Source of the DNA: Rhodobacteraceae bacterium DSL-40
Lineage (GTDB): Bacteria; Pseudomonadota; Alphaproteobacteria; Rhodobacterales; Rhodobacteraceae
Length of the DNA stretch: 64,000 nt
Assembly: GCA_003258405.1 (NCBI GenBank)
Contig: QKPN01000001.1
Span: forward strand, 248,001 to 312,000
Direction of reading: 5' to 3'
Shown: positions 37,790-42,461 of the stretch, one piece after another
Layout of the letters: every line of letters begins with the position of its first letter
Numbering within the stretch: the stretch's first letter is position 1
Notes under the pieces: model-generated
Seen by the model: the letters and a program-made list of their open reading frames with translations, nothing else
What the model was told of the DNA's origin: nothing
Database searches by the model: none
Made by a program: the position numbers and the translations under genes

Positions 37790-38067
37790 GCCTCGCGGCC
37801 GCCTCCGTGCCCCGGATGCCGCGCGGCGTGCGGCTTCAGGAAGATCGCGTGCGGGGCGGCTGGGTGCTTCTTGCGCCGGAGCGGGCCATTGCGCTCGATG
37901 CCGTGGGTCTCGCGATCATTTCGCGCATCGACGGCGCACGCGATTTCGGCGCGATTGTCGCTGATCTGTCAGAGACTTATGGTGCGCCGGAGGCCGAGAT
38001 CGCGCGGGACAGCGGCGAGTTCATCGCCGCGCTCGCGGAGCGGCGCATTCTGGAGATCATGGTATGA
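37786..38067 (+). CDS. pqqD: PQQ biosynthesis chaperone PqqD
   Basis: This 93-aa RiPP recognition element binds PqqA and presents it to PqqE. It carries the family's ALDAVGLAIISRIDGARDFGAIVADL core and a C-terminal DSGEFIAALAERRILE helix. Overlaps with both neighbours indicate coupled translation. Confidence 0.95.
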   Translation: MSLAAASVPRMPRGVRLQEDRVRGGWVLLAPERAIALDAVGLAIISRIDGARDFGAIVADLSETYGAPEAEIARDSGEFIAALAERRILEIMV

Positions 38068-39170
38068 CCGCCCGCCCGCCGATCGCGATGCTCGCCGAGC
38101 TCACCCATCGCTGCCCGCTGTCCTGCCCGTATTGCTCCAACCCGGTGGAGCTGGCGCGGAAGGAGAGCGAGCTTTCGACTGCGGAATGGGCCGGGGTGTT
38201 CCGGCAGGCCGCGGAGCTCGGCGTGCTGCAGCTGCATCTCTCCGGCGGGGAACCGGCCTCGCGGCGGGACCTCGTGGAGCTTGTCGAGGCCGCGCGGGAG
38301 GCGGGGCTCTACACCAATCTCATCACCTCCGGCATCGGGCTGACGGAGCGCCGGCTCATGGCGCTCGACGCCGCCGGGCTCGACCACATCCAGCTTTCGC
38401 TGCAGGGGACGGATGCGGAAACCGCCGACAGGATCGGCGGCTATCGCTCTGGTTTCGAAAGGAAAATGGCCGTCGCCGCCTGGATCGGCAAGATCGGCTT
38501 TCCGCTCACGCTCAACTTCGTCATGCACCGGCAGAACATGCACCAGCTGCCGCGCGCGCTCGAAATGGCGGAGGAAATGGGGGCGCGGCGGATCGAGGTG
38601 GCGACGGTGCAGTTTCATGGCTGGGCGATGCTCAACAGGGGGGCGCTGATGCCGAGCCTCGAGCAGGCGCGGGAGGCCGGGCGGATCGTGCGGGAGGCGC
38701 GGGAGCGGCTCAAGGGGCGGCTGGTGATCGACTATGTGCCCGCCGACTATCACGCCAAATATCCCAAGCCCTGCATGGGCGGCTGGGGCTCGACCGGGCT
38801 CAACGTCACGCCGGACGGCATCGTGCTGCCCTGCCATGCGGCGCAGACGATTCCGTCGCTCAGTTTCGAGACCGTGCGGGAGAAAACGCTCGGCGAGATC
38901 TGGGAAAACTCGAGCGCCTTCAATGCCTTCCGCGGCACGGACTGGATGGCGGAGCCCTGCCGGTCCTGCGACCGGAAGGAGGCGGATTTCGGCGGATGCC
39001 GGTGTCAGGCGATGGCGCTGGCGGGGGATGCGACGGCGACCGATCCGGTCTGCATCAAGTCGCCGCTGCATGGGAAAATCCATGCCATGGCGCAGGACTG
39101 GGCCGCGGAAGAGGGCGCCGAGCTGACCTGGCGAACGGGGCCGGAACGGGTGCTCGAAGGGCAGAGCTGA
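38064..39170 (+). CDS. pqqE: PQQ biosynthesis radical-SAM enzyme PqqE
   Basis: The 368-aa enzyme joins the Glu and Tyr of PqqA. Radical-SAM cluster: ELTHRCPLSCPYCSNP with C17, C21 and C24. A SPASM domain at the C-terminus holds the auxiliary-cluster cysteines (PCHAAQ, EPCRSCDRKEADFGGCRCQAM). It is the last gene of the operon. No PQQ-dependent dehydrogenase lies in the window. Confidence 0.97.
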   Translation: MTARPPIAMLAELTHRCPLSCPYCSNPVELARKESELSTAEWAGVFRQAAELGVLQLHLSGGEPASRRDLVELVEAAREAGLYTNLITSGIGLTERRLMALDAAGLDHIQLSLQGTDAETADRIGGYRSGFERKMAVAAWIGKIGFPLTLNFVMHRQNMHQLPRALEMAEEMGARRIEVATVQFHGWAMLNRGALMPSLEQAREAGRIVREARERLKGRLVIDYVPADYHAKYPKPCMGGWGSTGLNVTPDGIVLPCHAAQTIPSLSFETVREKTLGEIWENSSAFNAFRGTDWMAEPCRSCDRKEADFGGCRCQAMALAGDATATDPVCIKSPLHGKIHAMAQDWAAEEGAELTWRTGPERVLEGQS

Positions 39171-39197
39171 GGCGCAGATCCGCGTGTCTGGATTCGG

Positions 39198-39230
39198 TAT
39201 GGAATCGATATGGAATCCATATGGCAAGCA
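39198..39230. repeat. Three 11-bp direct repeats
   Basis: TATGGAATCGA, TATGGAATCCA and TATGGCAAGCA follow each other with an 11-bp period, about one helical turn. The middle one also makes an ATATGG-aat-CCATAT palindrome. The role is unknown. Confidence 0.5.
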
Positions 39231-39460
39231 AAGCACTCGGGTATATCCGCCCGGATCGGACGACATCGCCTCCGAGGGCCAGCAGGTTTAGCCTCCCGGA
39301 TCGCATCAGCGGGGTGCCGGGGGCACGCCGCGCGATCCGGTCGGCCGGAGGGCTATGCCCGGAGGTCGAGGGGTTTGGGGCTGGCCCATCGGGCCGGATC
39401 GAGGCGGGGCTGCCCTGGGAGGCGCGCACTGCGCGTCCGCCCCCGGGAGGGCAGCCGCGG

Positions 39461-39486
39461 CTCGATTTGCCGCGGGTCAAATCGAG
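39461..39486. repeat. Perfect 9-bp inverted repeat at the GC/AT boundary
   Basis: CTCGATTTG-8 nt-CAAATCGAG ends exactly where AT-rich DNA begins. It could end pqq transcription or mark an insertion junction. Confidence 0.55.
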
Positions 39487-39568
39487 TTGAATTCTCAACA
39501 CTTTTGTAGAATACTGCTGCATATCTAGTAAAATATGATACTTCATATTAATTATAGTTGGATAAAAA

Positions 39569-40528
39569 ATGTTTTTTTCAGATGAAGAGATTAATTTGCT
39601 GCGTTTGTTTGATCCATGGTATCTGTCGCAAGTTAAGCGCATGTACAATGAGAAAAAACGATTAGTTCACTACACGTCATCAAGTGTTGCATTTAGTATC
39701 TTAAAGAATTCAGAAATATGGATGCGAAATGCAGCATGCATGAATGATTATATGGAAATATATCACGGAATTCAATTTGTAGATAAATTTATAACCTCAG
39801 AATTATATATTAGCGTTATGAGGTTAATTGACGAATCGTTTCCTGATACATCTAAATATATTGAAGCTATATTTCACAATTACAAAAATCAATATCTGTA
39901 TGATACCTATATAACTTGCTTGTCAGAGCATGAGACCTCGGAAGATTTTCTCGGAAGACTATCAATGTGGAGAGCTTACGGGGGAAAGAGCGGCGTTGCC
40001 CTTGTAGTTAGAAATACTCCCTTTCTGACCTATAAAAATCAGAATATTGGTGCCTTTTCGGCTCCGGTACTATATGCTGGAGAAAAAAATTTTAAGTCTC
40101 ATTTAGAAGAAACGTTTGAAAACTTGCGCAATAGCATCGAAGAAATTTCAAAACTCGACAAAGAAGATGTTAAAAAAATGTTAGCTAATCTTTTGATAAG
40201 ACTAATTTTGTGCTCTAAGCATCCAGGTTTTAGTGAGGAGAAAGAGTGGCGAATTTATCATTTGCCGATATTTTTCCAGTCAAAACATCTTTCAAAGAGT
40301 ATTGAGATTTGCAGAGGTGATCCCCAAATTGTTTACAAGATGCCATTGAAAAATAGATCTGATCTTGAAATTAGAAATATAGATCCAAAAGAAATTCTTG
40401 ACTCTTTAGTGATTGGACCACACGAAAATCCACTTCCATTGAGTCGTGCGTTCAAATATATTTTGGAAGATCTTAAATTTAGCAACCCAGATAAAATAAT
40501 TAAAGTATCAGATATCCCGTTACGCTAA
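39569..40528 (+). CDS. DUF2971-domain protein on an AT-rich island
   Basis: The 319-aa product has RLVHYTSSSVAFSILKNSEIWMRNAACMNDYMEIYHG near residues 24-60, SEHETSEDFLGRLSMWRAYGGKSGVALVV near 117-145, and EEKEWRIYHLP near 223-234. This three-block pattern (H-Y-T-S, W..A...M-N-D..E, S.S...MW..Y....G..L, K..EWR) fits DUF2971, a family of unknown activity found in genomic islands. Codon use and base composition are far more AT-rich than any neighbour, indicating transfer. The start at 39569 has only a weak GGAT ribosome site. Confidence 0.82.
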   Translation: MFFSDEEINLLRLFDPWYLSQVKRMYNEKKRLVHYTSSSVAFSILKNSEIWMRNAACMNDYMEIYHGIQFVDKFITSELYISVMRLIDESFPDTSKYIEAIFHNYKNQYLYDTYITCLSEHETSEDFLGRLSMWRAYGGKSGVALVVRNTPFLTYKNQNIGAFSAPVLYAGEKNFKSHLEETFENLRNSIEEISKLDKEDVKKMLANLLIRLILCSKHPGFSEEKEWRIYHLPIFFQSKHLSKSIEICRGDPQIVYKMPLKNRSDLEIRNIDPKEILDSLVIGPHENPLPLSRAFKYILEDLKFSNPDKIIKVSDIPLR

Positions 40529-40661
40529 TTAATAGAATCACTATACCCAATATAGGACGATAAATGTAAGATTAAATTCCGCTCATTTTTCCGTCTATAT
40601 TTTCAATCATAGAAATTAATTTGCAGAAATATTCGAGGGTTGCCCATGGGTCTACCGCTCC

Positions 40662-42461
<1,800 letters not shown>

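Follow-up and report, generated by a model that had tools for sequence, protein, structure and literature searches.

In the genome of Rhodobacteraceae bacterium DSL-40 a single gene is located between pqqE and lepA within a block of AT-rich DNA, which raises the question of where this gene originates from, why it resides at this very position and what its product does. The window, i.e. the whole stretch of 64,000 nucleotides that was analysed, shows a mean GC content of 0.666 (standard deviation 0.039). The maximum-scoring AT segment and the GC profile delimit a 1.15-kb island at positions 39479 to 40633 whose GC content amounts to 0.327, while the next-lowest stretch of this length in the 64 kb still reaches 0.545. 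A previous sequence-only reading had placed this shift in composition at 39487 to 40640, next to the 3' end of lepA, in close agreement with the segment scan, and had suggested GC content and codon use as a check. The latter points in the same direction, the GC3 of the island gene being 0.31 compared to 0.94 for lepA and 0.88 for pqqE. As claimed in that reading, the island harbours one open reading frame only (39569 to 40528, plus strand), which encodes a protein of 319 amino acids matching PF11185 (DUF2971) with an E value of 6.6e-12. It is oriented convergently with lepA (40662 to 42461, minus strand; elongation factor 4, assigned by Pfam and by the lepA matches of relatives), whose stop codon is about 29 nucleotides away from the AT-rich block. 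The other flank in this genome is formed by pqqE (38064 to 39170, plus strand; Radical_SAM and SPASM domains, matching annotated pqqE), 0.3 kb upstream of the block. Neither the island nor its flanks contain an integrase, and the island ends show no long direct repeat or attachment-site pair, in line with the earlier observation that target duplication and integrase are lacking; the 64-kb window also has no tRNA gene. The explanation we favour, with a probability of roughly 0.6, is that of a horizontally gained gene encoding a protein of ADP-ribosyltransferase (ART) fold, probably directed against phages, which occupies an integrase-free one-gene slot at a hotspot behind lepA.

The foreign origin of the gene is supported by its composition, its codon use and its absence from relatives. 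Among 101 relatives searched, including 10 congeners, a strong protein match is found in the own genome only, where DUF2971 occurs once; three other matches, at the level of the class, are weak (E 1.3e-8 to 3.1e-4). None of the other 100 relatives thus encodes a comparable protein, as expected for the foreign orphan cargo which had been proposed, and the gene, rather than being present at the same locus with matching codon use throughout the relatives, has no good protein match in the 10 congeners. Relatives of the protein are encoded in 5 of 36 candidate stretches of GTDB contigs, namely in Albimonas, Shewanella, Sulfuricurvum and Syntrophaceae (32 to 39% identity) as well as in Lacrimispora (26%). 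In several hosts the gene coincides with an AT dip (GC content 0.47 compared with about 0.70 in Albimonas and 0.48 compared with roughly 0.72 in L296), which is hardly visible in L040, L078 and L305. Matches to 21 plasmid records all remain below 60% identity. On plasmid At of A. fabrum a DUF2971 gene, whose product is 23% identical to the window protein, is positioned next to qatD. There (L076, 6238 to 7858) it directly follows qatD downstream and is possibly an accessory of the Qat region. The phage genome collection contains no match to the window protein, and 44 loci with relatives are present on viral contigs (A3 does not include the partial viral sequence L304).

PF11185 is the only Pfam family matched by the window protein, over residues 133 to 229 and with 47.1 bits at a cut-off of 22. 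The residues invariant in 24 aligned sequences include Y35, W51, N59, D60, E63, L131, S132, W134, R135, G138, Y169, K217, F221, E223, E224, E226, W227 and R228. Y35 and H34, the latter conserved in at least 90% of the sequences, belong to an HYTS motif within the first strand of the predicted ART fold (codons 34 and 35 at 39668 to 39673, plus strand), while codons 223 to 228 (40235 to 40252, plus strand) specify an E-E-x-E-W-R stretch. It is this HYTS...NDxxE...EExEWR pattern which led us to suspect an ADP-ribosyltransferase. For a first structure model, built with 6 sequences (pLDDT 80.8), the top row was yeast Tpt1 (Z 6.8), followed by two DarT rows (Z 6.0 and 5.6) and then, at 3.5, by the next row. 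For the second model, built with 24 sequences (pLDDT 93.1, pTM 0.89), rows 1 to 14 of the VIA-align comparison are all occupied by ART-fold proteins, identified as such partly by title, at Z scores of 6.6 to 3.0 which, being below 8, are middling and result from a re-ranking of Foldseek candidates that covers only the structural families in the Foldseek list. The Tpt1 row (Z 6.6) comprises 115 residues at 3.3 Å and the DarT1 row (Z 6.5) 152 residues at 4.3 Å. Six further DarT or DarTG rows (Z 6.3 to 5.8) are followed by an NAD-bound Salmonella effector (5.6), CteC (4.3 to 3.3) and OspC3 (3.0), and the first unrelated row appears at rank 15 with a Z score of 2.6. Tpt1, OspC3 and the Salmonella effector we take to share the ART fold. 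Foldseek alone gave no significant match for either model (no E value below 0.9 for the second), and a sequence search for a solved relative of the window protein returned nothing significant. From the models it appears likely that the DUF2971 protein adopts a DarT/Tpt1-like ART fold, a prediction at which the sequence-only reading had not arrived. ADP-ribosyltransferase catalysis is less sure than the fold; E226, which opens the strand 226 to 231 of the structure model, would be the candidate for the catalytic glutamate.

The strongest alternative accepts foreign cargo at a variable locus while assuming it to be neither an ADP-ribosyltransferase nor a defence gene, but a moron or prophage remnant with some unrelated function. 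It draws on the middling Z scores, on the fact that the window protein matches none of the families of PADLOC 2.0.0 up to an E value of 10, and on the viral relatives: among the best 19 of the 44 loci, 16 viral contigs are at least 15 kb long, and 12 of these have the gene within 5 kb of an end, where 4.9 would be expected, a distribution which fits either prophage-edge cargo or host flank. However, ART-fold proteins fill all of the 14 leading structural rows, and the conserved core suits an enzyme. In addition, two other DUF2971-type proteins, one of them encoded 3' of lepA, match the PADLOC candidate PDC-S31 at an E value of 1e-6 or better, and the plasmid At gene adjoins qatD. We therefore consider an unrelated function rather improbable. 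The earlier suggestion that the gene might be defence-related is rendered plausible by PDC-S31, by the qatD neighbourhood and by the positions on viral contigs, whereas the window protein itself contributes no PADLOC match to it.

As to the manner in which the favoured ART-fold cargo reached its position, the left edge of the island deserves attention. The AT-rich block begins where a GC-rich dispersed repeat of about 190 nucleotides (39294 to 39490) ends. By a DNA search, this repeat is found as one full copy in the own genome and recurs in congeners, with 17 matches in G003 and 4 in G005. A further short and palindrome-rich dispersed repeat (39173 to 39230) has many additional matches in the own genome. 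The perfect 9-bp inverted repeat (39461 to 39469 and 39478 to 39486) which the sequence-only reading had described is present. It constitutes, however, the terminal hairpin of the 190-nucleotide repeat and recurs, with compensating letters, in other copies including those of congeners, so that the evidence does not bear out its interpretation as a border signal. To the right of the other copies examined (19 fetched regions besides our own, some with partial copies) ordinary, non-AT-rich DNA follows. We also considered the repeat as carrier of the island and rejected this, since none of the 19 other regions exhibits a comparable AT-rich block after the copy. A GTTRRRY-like string which occurs by chance at the left edge had prompted an integron or att-site reading; this reading was abandoned, since the hairpin is part of a dispersed repeat and an integrase is seen neither in the island nor in its flanks. 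More generally, the island might have been inserted by a site-specific element (an integron cassette, a transposon or an ICE) whose recombinase was subsequently lost and whose end is marked by the repeat hairpin. That the AT-rich block starts abruptly where a hairpin-terminated repeat ends would agree with this. Yet the other repeat copies examined border on ordinary DNA, no direct repeat is present at both island ends, and the 25 listed of the 36 Pfam families matched by 63 cargo reading frames from behind lepA include no integrase or transposase family, which makes such an insertion highly improbable.

In the family to which the window's genome belongs, the 3' side of lepA is a hotspot, a circumstance that had been missed by the sequence-only reading. 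DNA matches of lepA and pqq to Paracoccus, Cereibacter and Salipiger place this family in Rhodobacterales. We compared the DNA 3' of lepA from 100 genomes (the own genome, 8 congeners and 91 other family members; 19 of 112 lepA matches were not fetched), scoring a GC drop of at least 0.08 within the first 600 nucleotides 3' of the gene. With G160 left out for its flank shorter than 600 nucleotides, 47 of 99 flanks show such a drop, and 31 of 99 a drop of at least 0.12. Control loci from the same family, taken from 30 genomes each out of 41, 41 and 40 with matches, display it in 3 of 28 cases for gyrB (two loci with short flanks left out), in 1 of 30 for uvrA and in 1 of 30 for aspS, i.e. in 5 of 88 altogether (Fisher p 3e-11 versus lepA). 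Likewise, outside the family but within the class only 2 of 29 lepA flanks display it (p 5e-5 versus lepA within the family); 3 of 32 out-of-family loci were omitted because of short flanks, and L346 (same family) as well as L063 to L065 (non-lepA or partial loci) are outside this set. Across 66 long flanks, the counts of GC drops per successive 600 nucleotides are 30, 25, 5, 2, 1, 1, 1 and 1, with hardly any drop beyond about 1.8 kb 3' of lepA. Measured in 37 long-flanked genomes, the length of the AT-rich block has a median of 1.2 kb and a maximum of 2.0 kb.

Different cargo is found at one and the same site beside a core gene. In 55 genomes with flanks of this kind we called 66 cargo reading frames of at least 90 amino acids, which form six small similarity clusters with all others being singletons; the calls are automatic, some surely spurious and, since ATG starts were preferred, some truncated. 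From our own reading of the sequence, the DUF2971 frame of G139, for instance, extends upstream to a GTG 14 nucleotides after the lepA stop codon. Twenty-eight genomes share one and the same next conserved gene, presumably alpha/beta-hydrolase-like judging from its sequence, and the interval between lepA and this gene ranges from 16 nucleotides (G071, empty) to 4,555 nucleotides. The six genomes with an interval of at most 540 nucleotides contain no called cargo, and some longer intervals are also free of AT-rich cargo. P. denitrificans has 3.4 kb in common, at 92 to 94%, with P. ferrooxidans, P. pantotrophus and two strains of P. versutus, yet it does not contain the lower-GC block of about 1.1 kb which adjoins lepA in those four Paracoccus records. 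The two strains of P. versutus resemble each other, so that this comparison does not extend to polymorphism between strains. Since the far flank in the window's genome is pqqE instead, lepA is the sole constant anchor. That the flank is just an ordinary AT-rich intergenic region with weakly selected reading frames, as the small size of some called frames without homologue in the set and the palindromic, terminator-like sequence at the beginning of several flanks might indicate, is very improbable and already disfavoured by the rarity of the GC drop at the three control genes, by long matches of cargo to known families and by same-flank intervals which are filled in some genomes and empty in others.

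We considered whether inverted copies of the 3' end of lepA might serve as a general means of entry; since no more than 8 of 100 genomes have such a copy of at least 8 nucleotides, they are not proposed as a mechanism. A perfect inverted copy of 16 to 18 nucleotides follows the stop codon in G057, G058, G151 and G167 (L141, L140, L194 and L144), an arrangement which resembles a hairpin whose loop contains the stop codon. After these copies a palindromic element of the GTGGGCG... type is present which looks shared with other genera.

The hotspot stretches consist mostly of unrelated short genes. Certain cargo proteins strongly match defence models, among them a reverse transcriptase in G050 (PADLOC UG13a, E 2e-130) and, in G016 (L151, 608 to 2387), a GmrSD_N protein (NsnA, E 8e-46) with a MAE_28990-like HEPN protein behind it. 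Cargo scanned singly further comprises FRG/PDC-S15 in G171, PDC-M32A in G069, DUF2971/PDC-S31 in G139, TIR-STAND/PDC-S59 in G012 and, in G010, a NACHT-like NTPase which stays below the Pfam cut-off; G005 carries PycTM in a flank which fails the GC-drop test. SocA_Panacea, DUF3800, HARE-HTH and DUF2971 occur twice each among the Pfam families of the cargo. A reading frame of 266 amino acids in the congener G009 has a K-x-P...E-x-E-x-R stretch in common at a low probability of 20.7%. Homologous membrane-like proteins of 233 amino acids are encoded behind lepA in two genera (L107, 11157 to 11858; L109, 10804 to 11505) and have no confident Pfam or PADLOC match. In spite of the strong single matches the overall rate is not higher than in the neighbourhood: at an E value of 1e-6 PADLOC matches 8 of 29 cargo proteins, a non-random sample chosen by hand with the longer ones first, versus 3 of 16 neighbouring proteins taken from 21 candidates (p 0.72), the latter matches looking, in our reading, like common ATPase or nuclease paralogues. 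The rate thus does not show an enrichment of defence genes in the cargo, and we rejected the match rate as proof of a defence hotspot.

Taken together, the site 3' of lepA would in this Rhodobacterales family be filled by ever-changing AT-rich and often defence-like genes which, devoid of an integrase of their own, most likely enter by recombination in the flanks. As no antitoxin adjoins, the DUF2971 enzyme is presumably silent in growing cells. Upon phage infection it would most likely use NAD+ to modify nucleic acid (DNA or RNA) or another target such as a protein, and this modification would block the growth of phage or host. Gene transfer agents are known in the order Rhodobacterales. The fragments of a few kb which they contain are possible carriers of the cargo, and packaging of short homologous fragments would explain both the cargo size of 1 to 2 kb and the lack of integrases. 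A bolder proposal, namely that throughout a whole Rhodobacterales family the lepA 3' end is an exchange slot for single anti-phage genes, served by short homologous fragments such as those packaged by gene transfer agents, and that DUF2971 represents an unrecognised single-gene ADP-ribosyltransferase defence family, we put forward as tentative and somewhat doubtful. If it is true, defence islands can be as short as one gene and integrase-free, and an address behind lepA that is fixed, readily recognised and occupied by a single foreign gene at any time would make it simple to search an abundant order of bacteria for new single-gene defence systems. The prediction of a DarT-like ADP-ribosyltransferase provides the unnamed DUF2971 family with a testable chemistry.

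Hotspots beside core genes are already known; what appears to be new, as the literature searched (few subscription papers being covered) contained no report of either, is the site behind lepA and the ART prediction for DUF2971. The predicted structure of the window protein resembles DarT of DarTG in its fold and in the succession of an N-terminal H-x-T-like motif, as in DarT, and, late in the sequence, a strand-borne glutamate. Unlike DarT, it has no PF14487 match, reaches a probability of 1.1% in an hhalign profile comparison with 4 DarT sequences, and features extra helices at a length of 319 amino acids. Nor does a DarG-like antitoxin adjoin the gene, the one-gene island being flanked by pqqE and lepA. 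DarT-like ARTs in viruses are discussed in PMC9503650, the passages on them making no mention of DUF2971. PDC-S31 is matched by other DUF2971-type proteins and not by the window protein, and the Qat region of plasmid At, where DUF2971 is placed beside qatD, is a multi-gene region with an integrase nearby. For the core defence hotspots cDHS1 and cDHS2 of Pseudomonas aeruginosa, the abstract of PMC10250203 gives medians of 26 kb and 6 kb, and as there, variable cargo that includes defence systems but consists largely of genes without a known function is found behind lepA at a fixed site beside core genes. In contrast to cDHS1/2, the cargo behind lepA amounts to about one gene, and the site is seen across the genera of a family with lepA as its one constant anchor.
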